From Candidatus Thalassarchaeaceae archaeon (GTDB lineage: Archaea > Thermoplasmatota > Poseidoniia > Poseidoniales > Thalassarchaeaceae), in the NCBI GenBank assembly GCA_023700255.1, contig JAJPRD010000006.1, forward strand, positions 1 through 61,386: a DNA stretch of 61,386 nucleotides, written 5' to 3'. A program made the position numbers and the translations under genes. The notes under the pieces were generated by a model. That model made no database searches and had not been told where the DNA came from. It saw nothing but the letters and a program-made list of their open reading frames with translations. Positions 18,356 through 52,510 of the stretch are shown one piece after another (positions within the stretch are counted from its first letter, which is position 1; every line of letters begins with the position of its first letter).

Positions 18356-20440
18356 TCACTCAACCTCCACGTGGCGAGTGCGGAAACCAAAAGGTAAGAA
18401 TACCTCTCCGCTAGAATCGTAATATTGCCTCATCCATTCTACGAAATGAAGCCTTGCTGCATGAATATTGGGGCTAAATACTCCAAGACCCCATGCAAAT
18501 AATTGAACTAGTAACCAACCAACAAAGAAAACTGGGAATAATAAAATATCCACACTACCAGTATCTGCAAGAGTATCTTTCATAGGATCCCACAACATAT
18601 TTCCTGTTTCAGCTATCTTAACTCCCACAATACCAACTGCGAAAAGACGCACGTAAGAAATTACTGAAGGCATCATTCCAATAGCCTCGATTGGGGCCAA
18701 AATTAAACTTATAGCGAGAGGTATGCCATGATAGTTATACAGAGTCCATATTAGAAGGACTACTGCTGATAAAGCGATTATTGCACCCGGTAGCATCATT
18801 GATTCAGCCTCATCTGGACCAAGATAACCGTATGAGAACATGAATCCGCCGATGAGTAATACAATCCATACACCATGCTCAAAAAATGCTGCTAATAAAC
18901 CAACGTGGCCATGATCAGTACCATAGAACAAAACATCCCTAAATCCAATTAATCTACCGAATATAATATGGATAAATCCTAGATAGATTGTCAGTATTAT
19001 TAAATCTTCGAGATTAGTTGTAACGCGATGGAAAGGATAAGCCAATTCAATACCGAATGGTAGTGATTTATGCCAAGCATGATAATTATTAGATGAGGAT
19101 AAAGCGGCATCAGGATACAAGAAAGAAAGAGCTTCAGCAGGATTATGGTGATGAGGATGAATTATCTCCCACCCTGCGAATTCAGCGTAAAGATAACCAA
19201 ATCCAAAGGTCCCTATTCCTATGTAGATGAGGAATTTCCCACCTAAGTTCATCATTTCATTCGAACCTGCACGGCTCATAATAAGCGCGCCAAGAGATAT
19301 AGTAATCAGACCATACGCCATATCTCCAAGCATCATTCCAAAGAATATTGGATATGTCACAAACATGAATAAAGTAGGATCAATTCTACCGTATGCTGGT
19401 CTTCCTACTGCATCAGTCAGCAATTCCATTGGTTTGCTGATTTTTCTATTTTGATATGAAATAGGAGGCATTTCTTGATGGTGAGAATGGTCAGAATGTC
19501 CATGACCTCCACCACCTGCCTTCATTACGAACGGGGATACCTCGGTATACAGGCAAGATTCTGAAAGCGCAGATTGTATCTCCTCTGAACGAGACATTTC
19601 AATCCAACCATCGATAAAGAATGCATGTTCAGAAACTGCAACTTTAACTGGCGCAGTTAAGACATCATGCTCCCTTTCTAATAATTCTAAACCACATACT
19701 AGAGATGACCCGAATTCACTAGTCCACGAATCTATTTCCATAGATAATGATGATTTTTCAGCCGATAAAGAACTTATTTGCTCACGGACTTCAGATAATA
19801 ACTGAATAGCATTTCCTTGGAGGTTAGTTGGGACATTAATCGCTTGGAAACCAGATTCATTCAGTAGAGATTGAGTGTCATTAGAATCACTATTTCTTAC
19901 AAAGACTGCGATTACTTTTGTTTTATTGGATAACCCATCAAAGAAAAGACTGTCAGAGGTTATCTTTTCGGCTATATCTAAATCAGTAACGGTTCCAACG
20001 AATGAAGAAAGTTCGGAGTAACCGAACAATAACTCTACATCCAAAGTAAGAGATGAAAGTAATTCAAGAACATCTGCTTCCTCTGACAAAGATGACAAAC
20101 GATTTTCTACAGTATCAAGTTGCGTACTTTTCTCAAGTAAAGATTCTACTGCACCTGGTAATGAACCATCGAGCTCTGAGCGAACCTTACTAGCAGACAC
20201 AGGTTTTTGAGGACCAGAAACATCAACAAGAGATGCAGCAGAACGTAGTTTCGACAAACTCTTACCTACAGTTTCTGCCTCTTCTTTGGGAGTACCTAAA
20301 CTAAATCCATCATCTGAGCCATCGTATTCAATAAAATGCAAGGCATTCAGTGCAGCTAAAGTGTCGATTACTCCATCGATCATGTCTTTACTGCCAGCAG
20401 CGAGTAAACGACCCATCTGCTGTGTATTAATTTGAGACAT
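18356..20440 (-). CDS. atpI: A-type ATP synthase subunit I (a)
   Basis: This subunit forms the ion half-channels and anchors the peripheral stalks. The N-terminal half (about 330 residues) is cytoplasmic with helical segments, followed by a His-rich linker (GGGHGHSDHSHHQE). The C-terminal half has seven or eight membrane helices, including PIFFGMMLGDMAYGLI and ISYVRLFAVGIVGVKIAE; the latter holds the Arg that faces the rotor Glu. Length 694 aa is normal. The start at ATG 20440 (MSQINTQQM) fits better than the TTG at 20455. It lies between H and K. Confidence 0.95.
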   Translation of the reverse strand: MSQINTQQMGRLLAAGSKDMIDGVIDTLAALNALHFIEYDGSDDGFSLGTPKEEAETVGKSLSKLRSAASLVDVSGPQKPVSASKVRSELDGSLPGAVESLLEKSTQLDTVENRLSSLSEEADVLELLSSLTLDVELLFGYSELSSFVGTVTDLDIAEKITSDSLFFDGLSNKTKVIAVFVRNSDSNDTQSLLNESGFQAINVPTNLQGNAIQLLSEVREQISSLSAEKSSLSMEIDSWTSEFGSSLVCGLELLEREHDVLTAPVKVAVSEHAFFIDGWIEMSRSEEIQSALSESCLYTEVSPFVMKAGGGGHGHSDHSHHQEMPPISYQNRKISKPMELLTDAVGRPAYGRIDPTLFMFVTYPIFFGMMLGDMAYGLITISLGALIMSRAGSNEMMNLGGKFLIYIGIGTFGFGYLYAEFAGWEIIHPHHHNPAEALSFLYPDAALSSSNNYHAWHKSLPFGIELAYPFHRVTTNLEDLIILTIYLGFIHIIFGRLIGFRDVLFYGTDHGHVGLLAAFFEHGVWIVLLIGGFMFSYGYLGPDEAESMMLPGAIIALSAVVLLIWTLYNYHGIPLAISLILAPIEAIGMMPSVISYVRLFAVGIVGVKIAETGNMLWDPMKDTLADTGSVDILLFPVFFVGWLLVQLFAWGLGVFSPNIHAARLHFVEWMRQYYDSSGEVFLPFGFRTRHVEVE

Positions 20441-20461
20441 GATTTTAACCCCCAATTAAAA

Positions 20462-46348: not shown

Positions 46349-47164
46349 TTAGTACGCTTCATCATCATTTGGAAATTCTTTACTACGCACATCTTCGATG
46401 TACTGCTTGACTGCTCCATCAATAATTTCACCTAAATCTGCATATCGTCTTAAGAATCTAGGGCTGAAATCTTTTGTTATTCCGAGCATGTCGTGTAGAA
46501 CTAAAACTTGACCATCGCAATCCGCTCCTGCGCCGATGCCAATCGTAGGAATTGTCAAAGATTCACTTACTTTCTTAGCTAACTCAGCGGGTATTTTTTC
46601 GAATACAATAGAGAAGCAACCAGCCTCTTCTAATATCTTCGCATCTTCAAGTAATTTAGCGGCTTCATCTTGCCCCTTAGCCCTAACACTGTAAGTACCA
46701 AATTTGTATATTGATTGTGGGGTTAATCCAAGATGACCCATCACTGGAATACCTGCTTGTTGAATACGTTTTACTGATTCAACAATTTCCGAACCTCCTT
46801 CAAGTTTAACTGCATGACCTCCGGACTCTTTCATAATACGAATTGCAGAATCAAGTGCCGTTTTAGAATCACCTTGATAAGTTCCAAATGGCATGTCTAC
46901 TACTACTAGTGCCCTATCTACACCGTTAACCACACATTGAGCATGGTAGATCATATGCTCAAGAGTAATTGGAACTGTCGTCTCATTACCAGCCATTACA
47001 TTAGATGCAGAATCTCCTACTAAAATTACATCGATACCTGCAGCATCAACAAGCCTTGCTAATGAATAATCATATGAGGTTAACATAGTTATTTTTTCAC
47101 CAGAGCTTTTCATCTCTTGGAGTGTATGAGTTGTTACTTTTTTGACTCGACTGGATATGGCCAT
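46349..47164 (-). CDS. panB: 3-methyl-2-oxobutanoate hydroxymethyltransferase
   Basis: PanB adds a hydroxymethyl group from methylene-THF to 2-oxoisovalerate, giving ketopantoate for coenzyme A. The 271 aa protein holds [56 protein letters not shown] and [22 protein letters not shown], all PanB signatures including the Mg-binding Asp residues and the catalytic Glu. The partner PanE is at 8731-9681. The folate-dependent reaction fits the presence of fhs. Confidence 0.95.
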
Positions 47165-47226: not shown

Positions 47227-48906
47227 CTAATCGAATTCTAATTCTTCGATACCTAATAAAAATTCATCAATTTCTAAAATCCCATCTTCATTTTCATCAG
47301 CAGCATGGAAATATTCTCTCAAAGCACCATACGGTAAATCTGATTCATGATCATCGCCTGAAAAGCCAAGTGACTCCATTGCTGAAATAAATTCTTGTAA
47401 ATTCAGATGATTATTACGTTCAGTATCGGCTGCATGGAATGCAGCCCAACGACGACGATGTTCGACCTCAGATGGATTTGTAAACATTAAACGGAATGTA
47501 TTCCAAGGAGTAATTTTTTTATTAACATGTTTTTTACCATAGGAGAGATAAATTATAGTACCCAATATTATTGCAGATGAACCTCCAATAACCGCTTTCA
47601 TACCCATTACATAGATTAAAAGTAGCCCACCAACTATCCCAAATATTTGGAAGAAGGGGAATAAAGGAGACCTCCATTTAGGATCATACCAATGAGAATT
47701 AGAGGACCTTCGTAGAACTAATACACAAGCATTTATTACAATAAATACCATTATTTTGAACCCTGAGGCCAACTCAGCAACATCATGTACTGGTAAGAAA
47801 AGAATGGCTGCTGCCATCGATAAACCTGTACCAATTATTGCCCAATGAGGTGTCTCAAATCTACCATGAACGTCTTCTAAAAAGCTTGGTAATAAATTAT
47901 CACGAGACATAGCGAAAGGAAAACGAGATGATGCCATGATTCCTGCAAGAGACATAGAAATCATAGTGAATACTGCTAAAATTGCAGCTATGGCAGCAAC
48001 GGTTTCACCTCCGACTGCTAGTGCGAAAATGTAAACTGGATCTTCTCTGCCATGAGTTCCATCTACATAGTTAGACGGATCAACTGAGACTGCCATAATC
48101 AATGTTACAAATACATATAACACTGTACTAAATAATAATGAAATCAAAATACCATAGGGCATATTTTTACCAGGATTTTTAACTTCTCCACCAACTGCTG
48201 CAATTTTTGTAACCCCTGCATAGGAAACGAAGACCAGTGCTGCTGTTGAGGAGAAAGATTGCCAATCAGGACCGAATGCCTCTCTGGATAAAGCCGCATC
48301 CCAATTTAGATCCATTGTAATCAAAGCCCAAACACAAATCAATAATAAATATGAAATAGATATTAAGACTATAGGGGTTTGAACTTTCTTAATACTTTTA
48401 ACTCCCAGAATATTAATCATCACAATGACTACTAACATAGCCATTGCTGCATAATCTAGATTAATTGTAACACCTACAATACCTTCAATAACCCATAAAT
48501 AAGCCTTAAAACCTATTAATGCAAATGCAGATTTTAACATGAAGTTAGCCCATAGACCTAATCCAGAAATGGTACCAATAAGTGGACCGAATGTATTTTC
48601 GATATAGACATAAGAACCACCAGAGGATGGCATTGCTGACGAAAGTTCTGATTTAGATATTGCACCTGGAAGAACAATTAATGCTGCAAATAAATAGGCT
48701 AACCAAATCCCACCTAATGCATCCCCTCCACCTCCAAGCTCCATCATGGCGAGAGATGGGAGGACGAATAATCCACTACCTAACATTGCAGATAATGAAA
48801 GTATAATTACTGAAAACAATCCTAATTTACGCTCTAATGCATTAGATACCTTCTCAAGTGGCTGAAGAACTATACCAATTACTTGACTCGGTGAAAGTCG
48901 ATTCAT
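47227..48906 (-). CDS. APC-family amino acid permease with C-terminal EF-hand pair
   Basis: Residues about 20-440 form a 12-helix APC transporter, with the consensus LSAMLGSGLFVLPSLAMMELGG in helix 1 and AVGGEVKNPGKNMPYGILISLLFSTVLYVFV near helix 6. The cytoplasmic tail carries two EF-hand loops: DTERNNHLNLQE (about 494-505) and the canonical DENEDGILEIDE (about 537-548). Such loops bind Ca2+. The fusion suggests calcium-regulated uptake. The ATG at 48906 is preferred; the frame opens at 48951 within the divergent lipoprotein gene's leader. Confidence 0.82.
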   Translation of the reverse strand: MNRLSPSQVIGIVLQPLEKVSNALERKLGLFSVIILSLSAMLGSGLFVLPSLAMMELGGGGDALGGIWLAYLFAALIVLPGAISKSELSSAMPSSGGSYVYIENTFGPLIGTISGLGLWANFMLKSAFALIGFKAYLWVIEGIVGVTINLDYAAMAMLVVIVMINILGVKSIKKVQTPIVLISISYLLLICVWALITMDLNWDAALSREAFGPDWQSFSSTAALVFVSYAGVTKIAAVGGEVKNPGKNMPYGILISLLFSTVLYVFVTLIMAVSVDPSNYVDGTHGREDPVYIFALAVGGETVAAIAAILAVFTMISMSLAGIMASSRFPFAMSRDNLLPSFLEDVHGRFETPHWAIIGTGLSMAAAILFLPVHDVAELASGFKIMVFIVINACVLVLRRSSNSHWYDPKWRSPLFPFFQIFGIVGGLLLIYVMGMKAVIGGSSAIILGTIIYLSYGKKHVNKKITPWNTFRLMFTNPSEVEHRRRWAAFHAADTERNNHLNLQEFISAMESLGFSGDDHESDLPYGALREYFHAADENEDGILEIDEFLLGIEELEFD

Positions 48907-48984
48907 AAATCTGGGATAGAATACGACTTGTTGAAGGTTTGGCAACCCCAATTGTTAATTTTCATAGATGGCCTCAGGAGCAAT

Positions 48985-50010
48985 ATGAGAACCATGTTGG
49001 CCATCACTGTTCTCATATTACTAACCAGCACTGTAAGTGGATGTATTGGGAAAAATGACATAGATCTGAATCTTGATGATGAAGAACCTACCCCTCTAAG
49101 GATTAATCATATTCAGATGAAAGGAACTCATAATTCGTATCATTTAGCTCCTTTAATACCTACAATTAGGGCATATGATTACTCTCATCAGCCATTAGAC
49201 GTACAGGCTGAAGAGCAAGGAGTAAGGCAATTTGAAATTGACGTTTGGTGGGATGCAAGAGGACAACTCTACGTATATCATAACCAATATGATTTACGTA
49301 CTACTTGTACCACCTTTGAAGAATGTCTCAACACACTGCTTAATTGGTCTAATGAAAATACAGAACATGTACCTCTAATGATTTGGATTGAACCAAAAGA
49401 ATGGGTTGAGCAGAGTACAGACAGTACCATCGTGGTTGAATTACAAAATATGTTAGATCAAATTGAGGAAGAGATCACTCAATTTTGGCCACGTAATAAA
49501 ACAATAACTCCTGATGATGTCAGAGGTGAATCGGAAACACTTTCTCAAGCAATAATGGAAGAAGGTTGGCCATTGCTAGATGAGTCAAGAGGGAAAGCAA
49601 TATTTATTCTTCTATCAAGTGGCGATTTGAGAGAAAATTATCATGAAAAATACCCTGGACTTATTAATTCAAGGATGTTTACTATGTCAAATGATCCAGG
49701 TAGTTCGGAAGCAGCAATATTTTCAAACACCGATCCAATAGGAAATGGTGATGAAATAATTGGACTAATCAAAGATGGCTATATTGTCCGTTCAAGAGCA
49801 GATAACGCAGAGGATGGTGAAGCAGATAACAATGATACAAGTCGTTTGAATGCAGCAATATCAGTAGGTGCACATTCGATTTCCACAGATTATCCATCTA
49901 AAGTGGAAGGAATTGATTATTGGGTAGATATACCCAATGGAAACCCAGTAGCATGTAATCCAATTTCAGCACCAATTGATTGTACCTCTGAAAGAATAGA
50001 ATCACTATAA
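48985..50010 (+). CDS. Lipoprotein of the calcium-dependent PI-PLC-like family
   Basis: The signal ends in a lipobox (VSGC, Cys20), so the protein is probably membrane-anchored outside. The catalytic core resembles the PI-PLC-C1 family: QMKGTHNSYH (first His), GVRQFEIDVWWD (Glu/Asp metal ligands), YVYHNQYD (second His), then PLMIWIEPKEW and a late ISTDYPSK block. These enzymes cleave phosphodiester bonds of phosphoinositides or related lipids. The ATG at 48985 follows AGGAG; an upstream frame to 48928 is unlikely. It is divergent from the EF-hand permease. Confidence 0.77.
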   Translation: MRTMLAITVLILLTSTVSGCIGKNDIDLNLDDEEPTPLRINHIQMKGTHNSYHLAPLIPTIRAYDYSHQPLDVQAEEQGVRQFEIDVWWDARGQLYVYHNQYDLRTTCTTFEECLNTLLNWSNENTEHVPLMIWIEPKEWVEQSTDSTIVVELQNMLDQIEEEITQFWPRNKTITPDDVRGESETLSQAIMEEGWPLLDESRGKAIFILLSSGDLRENYHEKYPGLINSRMFTMSNDPGSSEAAIFSNTDPIGNGDEIIGLIKDGYIVRSRADNAEDGEADNNDTSRLNAAISVGAHSISTDYPSKVEGIDYWVDIPNGNPVACNPISAPIDCTSERIESL

Positions 50011-50021
50011 AAAGAAAATAA

Positions 50022-50672
50022 CTAAACTTTGGCAATTACTTTCAATTCGACTGCAATGGGAGTAGGTAAAGCACTAACTGAACATGTAGTACGAGATGGC
50101 ATTATTTCTGAAAAATACTCAGCATATACTTCATTATATCCCGCAAAGTCTCTATCCATATCTACAAGCATTGAATAAACATCTACTACTTTTTCTAGAC
50201 TAGAACCATATTCTTCAAGGATTATCCTAATATTATCAATGACTGAACGAGTTTGGGCTCTGATATCATAATCTAGAGGATTACCAGATTCATCTTTGAT
50301 AGGTCCTCCCGGGATTTCATTTGTAACAGGTTTCCTTGGACCTATTCCACTAACAAAAATAAGATTACCTACTCGATGTAAATGAGGATAAGCCCCTACT
50401 GCTGACGGTCCCTCTGTAGAAATAAAGGGTCCATTCTCTAGAACTAATTTCCCAGCAGTTTTCTTACCTACAACGCCGCCAACAATTCCGCCTACAGGTC
50501 CACCAACTGCTATTCCTGCTGCTGCTCCTAATGCGCCTCCAGCAGAACTAAGTATGGATTTACCATAATCATCATATATTTTCTCAATAAATTCATCTGG
50601 AGCGAAAACAATGCCTTCGATGAGTTTACGGCGTCTTTCAAAATCCGTTAACTCATCATTGTCAGTCATCAT
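50022..50672 (-). CDS. RidA-family protein (2-aminomuconate deaminase-like) with an N-terminal glycine-zipper hairpin
   Basis: Residues about 85-216 form a RidA/YjgF domain with NLIFVSGIGPRKP, TRSVIDNIRIILEEYGSSLEKVVDVYSMLVDM, the MPSRTTCSV Arg and VELKVIAKV. It resembles the AmnD type that deaminates 2-aminomuconate. Residues about 38-70 are a glycine-zipper segment (GGALGAAAGIAVGGPVGGIVGGVVG), suited to a membrane hairpin and absent from ordinary RidA. The start overlaps the stop of the dioxygenase alpha gene (ATGA), so the three genes are coupled. The substrate is inferred from context only. Confidence 0.72.
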   Translation of the reverse strand: MMTDNDELTDFERRRKLIEGIVFAPDEFIEKIYDDYGKSILSSAGGALGAAAGIAVGGPVGGIVGGVVGKKTAGKLVLENGPFISTEGPSAVGAYPHLHRVGNLIFVSGIGPRKPVTNEIPGGPIKDESGNPLDYDIRAQTRSVIDNIRIILEEYGSSLEKVVDVYSMLVDMDRDFAGYNEVYAEYFSEIMPSRTTCSVSALPTPIAVELKVIAKV

Positions 50673-51595
50673 AAGTTCCCCTTATTGAGTACATTACGAT
50701 CACCTTGATAGTATTCTACATCATCTTCATCAAACTCTTTGTCGCCGAAAGATCCGGTAGAAGGAGTAAGTTGAATCACAGCGCCACCTGAACCGTGTAA
50801 TGCTTCGTAAGCCAATACTTCACCATCGTAATTATTATGCTGTCCCATTGCCGCTGCTAACCACCAAGCGGGCTTGTAAGCAACTACTTTCTGAACTCTA
50901 ATCTGTCCATGTATCTCGCGACTTAGTTGGCTCAAATCTTCTAATCGACCATCTGCAAAAAATTCTAAAATTTTCTCATTCCATTCGTTATCCTTAGAAC
51001 TGTGAATTCTATCATCAACAGGATCAATATGTTCAGTAAACATTCTATTCGATAGACTTGAAACAACTACTATGACTGCCTTTTTACCTTGAGTAATTAA
51101 AGCATCACGAGCGGATTTACCTAGAACGATAGTTTCAGAACGGTTCGCATACATATTGCTAGAAACAATACATGCAGGTATACGATTATCCGGATTTAAC
51201 AAACTAAGTGCGACTACTGAACCAGTATCTATAGGAAATCCTTCATAATCCACTGTACGAGCATGTAGTCCTCTTTTTTTTGCTGCAGCACAGTGCTCAT
51301 GAGCAAACTCATCATCAATTTGGAAGTTATATGGCATACTTCCAAGATAATGGAAATCATCATCGACATGAGTCCAGATTGATTCTTTTAGAGCTTGGAT
51401 TTGGTGACCTACAACGCTTGGCCAGGTTGTAGAATAGACTAATATTAAATCTGCATCACTTTCTTCAATTCTTTTCCTACATGTTTCAAAAGCAGCACGT
51501 AAATTAGCATAACCTTGATTAGCATCTGGGCTAAGAAGAGGCTGTGGGTGTGGTGGGACATAAAGTCCGAATAAAATAGGAGATTCATCAGTCAT
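50669..51595 (-). CDS. Class III extradiol dioxygenase, non-catalytic alpha-type subunit (AmnA-like)
   Basis: This 308 aa LigB-fold protein is paralogous to its upstream neighbour. It keeps the PPHPQPL segment but has Thr where the second iron-binding His stands (STTWPS instead of TPHW), and it lacks the third ligand Glu, so it should not hold iron. That matches the alpha subunit of 2-aminophenol 1,6-dioxygenase, which supports an (alpha/beta) complex. The Shine-Dalgarno is GAGGTG. It lies 9 bases after the catalytic subunit and overlaps the RidA gene. Confidence 0.78.
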   Translation of the reverse strand: MTDESPILFGLYVPPHPQPLLSPDANQGYANLRAAFETCRKRIEESDADLILVYSTTWPSVVGHQIQALKESIWTHVDDDFHYLGSMPYNFQIDDEFAHEHCAAAKKRGLHARTVDYEGFPIDTGSVVALSLLNPDNRIPACIVSSNMYANRSETIVLGKSARDALITQGKKAVIVVVSSLSNRMFTEHIDPVDDRIHSSKDNEWNEKILEFFADGRLEDLSQLSREIHGQIRVQKVVAYKPAWWLAAAMGQHNNYDGEVLAYEALHGSGGAVIQLTPSTGSFGDKEFDEDDVEYYQGDRNVLNKGNL

Positions 51596-51604
51596 TTAAA
51601 CACC

Positions 51605-52510
51605 TCAAAGAACTAACTCCCTAGTATTTGTATTGGGATCCCAACATGCGATACAGTTACCAGTACCAATCACTGATTGGTAACCATAAATCTCAGCAGG
51701 ATAACTTGGAATACCCATTGCAGCCATCATCCAGATTAATCCACCAGCTTCAGTTTCAGCTATTGTTTGTTCAGTATATTCGGGCATAATATCAACTACT
51801 TCTTGCATCTGACCTTTTCTGAACATATCGATTATTTTCATATCCCAGACATATTGACTGTGATTATAGATATGTTCCCTGCTCATATCTTCGGGAAGAG
51901 GAGCCTCAGTAACGAAATGACGATGGCTTAGACTATTACTACTAATTAGAACAACTTTCTTGCCACTCTTTTCAATTGCTTTCATACAAGCTTCACCCAA
52001 CGCTTTAGCTTGTTCAATCATAACTTCGTTAGAATAGTAATGTGCATTACGGTTACTTGAAATCGTAACTATTGGTTTGTCCCATGAAGGATTTAGAAGA
52101 TGGCAAGAAGTAATTGTACCATAATCAACTCTAAAATCAGGGTTCCTCATCATTTTAGTAATAATCCCTGCCTTAGCAGTCTCTTCATGCATTGCTTCAG
52201 CTAATTCGACATCGACCTTAAGATCGTAATTATATCTAAACAAATTAGGGAATACTGGGTCCACTGATTTAGATTTGAATTCTGGAAGCCCAAGGAAATG
52301 TGTACCGATATAAGTCTGCCAATGAGGAGTGAAAATTACTATTGCATCATAATCAATTGTTTTCAACTTCCTAGCAAGCTTAGCATAGCCCCAACGCAGT
52401 GTTTCCCAGCCACCTTCACTAAAGGCTTCATTTTGAGGAGGATTATCAGCATAAACAAGATGTGGTGGGTGTGGAGCTAGACAACCAAGTACAATTTCGC
52501 CTTTCTTCAT
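51605..52510 (-). CDS. Class III extradiol dioxygenase, catalytic beta-type subunit (AmnB-like)
   Basis: The 301 aa protein follows AmnB (2-aminophenol 1,6-dioxygenase beta) over its whole length as I recall that sequence: LAPHPPHLVYADNPPQNEAFSEGGWETLRWGY, SVDPVFPNLFRYNYDLKVDVELAEA, TKMMRNPDFRVDYGTIT, GEACMKAIEKSGKKVVLISSNSLSHRHF and YGYQSVIGTGN. His14, His63 and Glu252 fall one position after the iron ligands of AmnB. It would open an aromatic ring next to the amino or hydroxyl group. It is the first gene of a three-gene operon with the alpha-type and RidA genes. The true substrate is unproven. Confidence 0.82.
   Translation of the reverse strand: MKKGEIVLGCLAPHPPHLVYADNPPQNEAFSEGGWETLRWGYAKLARKLKTIDYDAIVIFTPHWQTYIGTHFLGLPEFKSKSVDPVFPNLFRYNYDLKVDVELAEAMHEETAKAGIITKMMRNPDFRVDYGTITSCHLLNPSWDKPIVTISSNRNAHYYSNEVMIEQAKALGEACMKAIEKSGKKVVLISSNSLSHRHFVTEAPLPEDMSREHIYNHSQYVWDMKIIDMFRKGQMQEVVDIMPEYTEQTIAETEAGGLIWMMAAMGIPSYPAEIYGYQSVIGTGNCIACWDPNTNTRELVL

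Follow-up and report, generated by a model that had tools for sequence, protein, structure and literature searches.

An APC-family permease of Poseidoniales with a C-terminal EF-hand pair, a candidate calcium-responsive transporter in archaea

Secondary transporters with an EF-hand regulatory domain are known from mitochondria, where the aspartate/glutamate carriers (SLC25A12/13) and the SCaMC carriers are so equipped (PMC4250520). Calmodulin-like EF-hand dyads occur also in prokaryotes, fused to membrane proteins and other proteins (7TM proteins, redox enzymes, NOS and others); the fusions listed are bacterial, and the section consulted names none with an APC or amino acid permease (PMC7016017). 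For archaea, a role of calcium as an internal messenger has little firm support. The stretch of DNA analysed here, in the following the window, comprises 61,386 nucleotides of contig JAJPRD010000006.1 from a Candidatus Thalassarchaeaceae archaeon (GCA_023700255.1; Candidatus Poseidoniales, MGII). It encodes an APC-family permease that, like some of the bacterial fusions, is a membrane protein with an EF-hand dyad, in this case a conserved C-terminal pair covalently tied to a transporter. Judged by sequence and structural models, this pair probably regulates transport in response to Ca2+.

The reverse-strand frame 47227-48951 provides 574 residues from a TTG at 48951 and 559 amino acids from an ATG at 48906. 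In several close homologues a stop codon immediately precedes the corresponding site, which makes the ATG the more likely start; residue numbers refer to the 559-residue form. An AA_permease_2 match and a 12-helix LeuT-type fold place the protein in the APC superfamily (Table 1). The nearest solved structures by sequence are those of GkApcT (5oqt, 6f34), which align across the whole membrane domain, and the AlphaFold model of the whole protein, for which the family alignment was supplied (pLDDT 84, pTM 0.80), superimposed on 5oqt with a TM-score of 0.85 by target length. All matches to NCBIfam amino acid transporter models were under cut-off, hence a substrate was not assignable from this source. 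The best explanation of these similarities is a plasma-membrane amino acid permease of Poseidoniales, with amino acid transport as predicted function.

The final 77 codons and the stop codon of the gene (47227-47460, minus strand) had been read in the first-pass annotation as two EF-hand loops ending an APC transporter, and both loops were found at these positions. Residues 461-559 form a linker and two helix-loop-helices, with the loop of EF-hand 1 (EF1) at residues 494-505 and that of EF-hand 2 (EF2) at 537-548; the pair is about 95 residues long. Scanned alone, the tail exceeded the gathering scores of the Pfam models EF-hand_6 (4.9e-10), EF-hand_1 (5.2e-9) and, as a pair, EF-hand_7 (6.2e-8), and a profile of 57 tails matched calmodulin, centrin and troponin C at about 1e-17 to 1e-19. 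A tail-only AlphaFold model reached a pLDDT of 86.8 and a pTM of 0.76. The models contain two helix-loop-helices with the short strand of each loop placed between the loops as in an EF-hand pair. Among the 50 Foldseek matches listed for the tail were EF-hand proteins or EF-containing fusions, with centrin, calmodulin and KChIP as top fold matches; the best E-value of 0.005 is modest, as expected at 95 residues, and probabilities were 0.99-1.00. The loop consensus of the superfamily (D1, x3, x5, G6, I8, x9, E12) is present, fully canonical in EF2 here and in most relatives and in a variant form in EF1. The earlier description of one canonical loop and one with the usual glycine replaced was thus accurate for EF2, but EF1 departs by more than the glycine in most relatives. 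Likewise, the two loops are indeed 31 residues apart, but this distance exceeds that of a standard pair such as calmodulin's (about 24 residues) owing to a short insertion; in most relatives the loops are about 24-26 residues apart. In the linker, the proline of a T-P-W/F motif was invariant in the 57 aligned tails, and the motif is partly retained in some tail-less orthologues.

Conservation of the loops was counted in 102 tailed sequences from both families of the order. In EF2, D1 and G6 were invariant, and the other positions were nearly so: D or N at position 3 (100/102), D, N or S at 5 (101/102), I, L or V at 8 (101/102) and E at 12 (92/102); the ligand positions 3, 5, 9 and 12 hold acidic or polar residues in nearly all sequences. 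A phenylalanine four residues before each loop was invariant. All four scored ligand positions were kept in EF2 of 92 sequences, in EF1 of only 18, among them the protein of the window. Two functional Ca2+ sites as a general feature were rejected because EF1 is degenerate in most species; on this sequence pattern EF2 is the predicted working site of what is mainly a one-site sensor. The pairwise non-synonymous divergence (dN) of the EF2 loop equalled that of the membrane domain (ratio 1.07), against ratios of 2.1 in the linker and 3.8 in the stretch that separates the two hands. Only relative dN was used, since most pairs were saturated at synonymous sites and 43 of 126 could be used, and the comparison excluded the N-terminus.

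The tail faces the cytosol, an assignment well supported by the fold model, homology to GkApcT and the charge distribution. The model has 12 membrane helices, in agreement with hydropathy, and loops predicted inside carry on average 6.5 lysine and arginine residues against 2.3 in those predicted outside (termini excluded). In GkApcT the N-terminal lateral helix packs at the cytoplasmic face (PMC5803215), and a count of 12 helices brings the C-terminus to the same side.

Among genomes at least 70 % complete, a homologue of the permease was present in 121 of 148 Thalassarchaeaceae, the family of the source genome, and, across the order, in 235 of 263. The EF-hand tail occurs in both families, Thalassarchaeaceae and Poseidoniaceae. 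In AG-422-I18 and AG-422-I20, whose names suggest single-cell genomes, the loci match residues 1-557 of 559; the fusion is therefore no binning artefact, and together with the family-wide conservation these genomes led us to reject chance or a sequencing error as its origin. The genomes listed for the sister family of the class contained no permease match, and among the matches listed from 244 genomes of the phylum, all those outside the order end at or before position 481 of the 550 positions of the profile and thus fall short of the EF-hand pair. Permeases ending soon after transmembrane helix 12 (TM12) were counted by hand in 11 of the 51 matched Poseidoniaceae genomes of the class survey. 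In a tree of the membrane domain only (quick search, midpoint root) the starred branches imply no fewer than six switches between the tailed and the tail-less state. As both families are mostly tailed, the simplest reading is an ancestral tail that was repeatedly lost in Poseidoniaceae. Most tail-less forms adjoin the same Rid-family and LigB-type genes as the tailed ones and are hence orthologues; an origin as paralogues was rejected wherever the neighbourhood was checked, the exception being the form in genome G180, for which neighbours were not found. A split tail, i.e., a separate EF-hand gene just downstream of tail-less permeases, was not seen by eye within about 270 bases, nor by tblastn over 7-9 kb at eight loci. 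These orthologues at the same gene position are natural built-in controls.

Calcium gating of uptake, proposed in the first-pass annotation, is the leading explanation for these features. The EF-hand identity, the fusion to an APC transporter, the archaeal origin and the cytosolic position are all supported; neither of the two findings that the first-pass annotation named as a refutation, a tail that does not score as EF-hand or one that faces the outside, was obtained. A rise in cytosolic Ca2+ would lead to binding at EF2, with EF1 acting mainly as its structural partner; the EF-hand helices would rearrange, and the TPW linker may transmit the movement to TM12 and on to the inner gate, altering the rate of uptake. 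We infer Ca2+ rather than Mg2+ as the ligand, as well as the direction of control and the route of coupling. Three observations weigh against such a sensor: the small share of sequences with all four EF1 ligands, glutamine instead of glutamate at position 12 of EF2 in 8 of the 102 sequences, and the 11 Poseidoniaceae genomes with a tail-less permease alone, in which the tail is dispensable.

The degenerate EF1 of most species and the loss of the tail from genes that persist would also suit a structural or interaction module that holds a permanent metal ion, Ca2+ or Mg2+, and stabilizes the C-terminus or an oligomer with no response to a signal; to our knowledge, Ca2+ transients have not been measured in Poseidoniales. 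Such a module is nevertheless unlikely: EF2 keeps a regulatory-type loop with its glutamate at position 12 amid relaxed linkers, and the source genome encodes exchangers as well as several further EF-hand proteins. Capturing a helix of a partner protein is common among EF-hand pairs, and the tail may instead be a Ca2+-dependent switch for docking or localization that recruits partner proteins and does not itself gate transport. The Rid protein and the two LigB-type enzymes, whose genes are strongly linked to that of the permease, are candidate partners, yet none is known as such, and most tail-less orthologues retain the same neighbours, so that the neighbourhood is independent of the tail; we consider a docking switch still more doubtful than a structural module. 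A tail outside the cell, for which the first-pass annotation had foreseen a purely structural binding of calcium, here from sea water, finds a parallel in the EF-like loops of a predicted secreted lipoprotein of the same genome (L034), but is very improbable given the 12 helices, the GkApcT homology over the full length, the charge distribution and the model.

Table 1. Location of the permease gene, its parts and conserved neighbouring genes in the window
Feature	Position	Strand	Remarks
APC-family amino acid permease gene with C-terminal EF-hand pair	47227..48906	(-)	AA_permease_2 (Pfam) 5.9e-45; EF-hand families over cut-off
12-helix APC (LeuT-fold) transporter domain, GkApcT-like	47527..48825	(-)	fold match, hydropathy, positive-inside charge
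Cytosolic linker after TM12 with conserved T-P-W/F motif	47461..47526	(-)	putative sensor-transporter coupling site
EF-hand 1, helix-loop-helix; loop DTERNNHLNLQE at 47392-47427 (+ strand coordinates)	47371..47475	(-)	ligands kept here, degenerate in most relatives
EF-hand 2, helix-loop-helix; canonical loop DENEDGILEIDE at 47263-47298	47233..47331	(-)	conserved across the order
panB (ketopantoate hydroxymethyltransferase)	46349..47164	(-)	conserved neighbour
Rid-family (Ribonuc_L-PSP) gene	50022..50672	(-)	directly upstream of the permease at most loci in both families
LigB-type extradiol dioxygenase-like gene	50669..51595	(-)	conserved neighbour
Second LigB-type extradiol dioxygenase-like gene	51605..52510	(-)	conserved in most loci checked

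The gene neighbourhood was compared in 80 permease loci. Nearby were panB (67/80), a Rid-family gene (69/80, on the same strand in most) and a LigB-type gene (65/80); panB lies downstream of the permease in the window and at many further loci, but at others it is upstream of the cluster. Two LigB-type enzymes and a Rid protein are reminiscent of aminophenol-type ring cleavage, and the neighbours hint at an aromatic or amine substrate, which we regard as a lead and not as a result. Divergent to the permease, a PI-PLC-C1 protein with a lipoprotein-like N-terminus is encoded at 48928-50010 (plus strand) and in 31 of the 80 loci; this Pfam family is defined as Ca2+-dependent phosphoinositide phospholipase C.

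The source genome holds further candidates for calcium handling. It has three genes of the Na+/Ca2+-exchanger family, two small proteins, related to each other, that have two membrane helices at the N-terminus and EF-hand loops at the C-terminus (L031, about 900-1728; L033:1054-1641), one protein with an N-terminal EF-hand pair and another membrane protein with an EF-hand match below cut-off, in addition to the lipoprotein mentioned above. A survey of archaeal protein families reported calcium-binding domains in modules specific to subgroups of Poseidoniales (PMC9258230). In a complete Poseidoniaceae genome (G174), subunit I of the A-type ATP synthase (L280:490-2895) contains a full EF-hand pair at residues ~336-397, located in the histidine-rich linker that joins the cytosolic and the membrane half; the subunit I encoded in the window (18356-20455) is without this pair. 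An 83-residue query of the subunit I pair found matches in 142 of the 146 Poseidoniaceae genomes. Many of the matching frames have about 750-870 amino acids, the size of subunit I; others are different proteins. A further protein (L284:70-1731) has several membrane helices, no other Pfam match and a C-terminal EF-hand pair about 70 % identical to that of subunit I; similar frames of about 650-662 amino acids recur across Poseidoniaceae. A DNA gyrase subunit A frame of G174 (L288:124-1605; 933 amino acids in all) ends with the EF-hand loop MDTDNDGVVTREEF, whose EF-hand_5 match of 1.7e-5 was just under cut-off. The EF-hand pairs on subunit I in Poseidoniaceae are a lead towards a wider archaeal Ca2+ network. 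Tentatively, Poseidoniales may possess a cytosolic calcium-signalling network in which EF-hand pairs grafted on the permease, on subunit I of the A-type ATP synthase and on others let Ca2+ co-ordinate nutrient uptake and energy conversion.

With its conserved EF-hand pair, the permease makes it a concrete, testable idea that archaea of an abundant marine group control their nutrient uptake through calcium, with an effect of Ca2+ readable as a transport rate. EF-hand transporters of mitochondria (PMC4250520) and prokaryotic EF-hand fusions (PMC7016017) were already known. In line with the first-pass annotation, which knew of no archaeal case, an archaeal APC permease with an EF-hand tail was not found in the open-access literature, in a search that covered neither domain-architecture databases nor subscription papers; it yielded only a general remark on families of calcium-binding domains in Poseidoniales (PMC9258230).

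With GkApcT and the CAT transporters (SLC7) the permease shares the transporter fold in a full-length alignment, but GkApcT lacks an EF-hand tail and its chain stops where the tail begins. APC permeases from other families of the phylum have a related transporter domain and a cytosolic C-terminal domain at the same place. Eight of these relatives were scanned with Pfam: five have a C-terminal domain resembling PTS EIIA type 2 (L177, L179, L181, L183 and L186; two of the matches below cut-off), two a Usp domain and one a long unmatched C-terminal part. PTS_EIIA_2-like or Usp domains thus stand where Poseidoniales have a calcium-binding-type module, and the end of TM12 is therefore a recurrent site for cytosolic domains; by analogy, this supports a regulatory role of the EF-hand pair, but does not show it. 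The mitochondrial carriers SLC25A12/13 and SCaMC resemble the permease in that an EF-hand regulatory domain is joined to a secondary transporter whose substrates are small metabolites, amino acids included (PMC4250520). They differ from it in the transporter, since fold and Pfam matches assign the permease to APC and not to the SLC25 carriers, and it bears a single C-terminal pair and is predicted in an archaeal cell membrane. The permease is analogous in layout to the calcium-regulated mitochondrial carriers, not a member of their family, and if regulation by Ca2+ is true, the few secondary transporters known to be under EF-hand control gain a further fold, APC, and a further domain of life.
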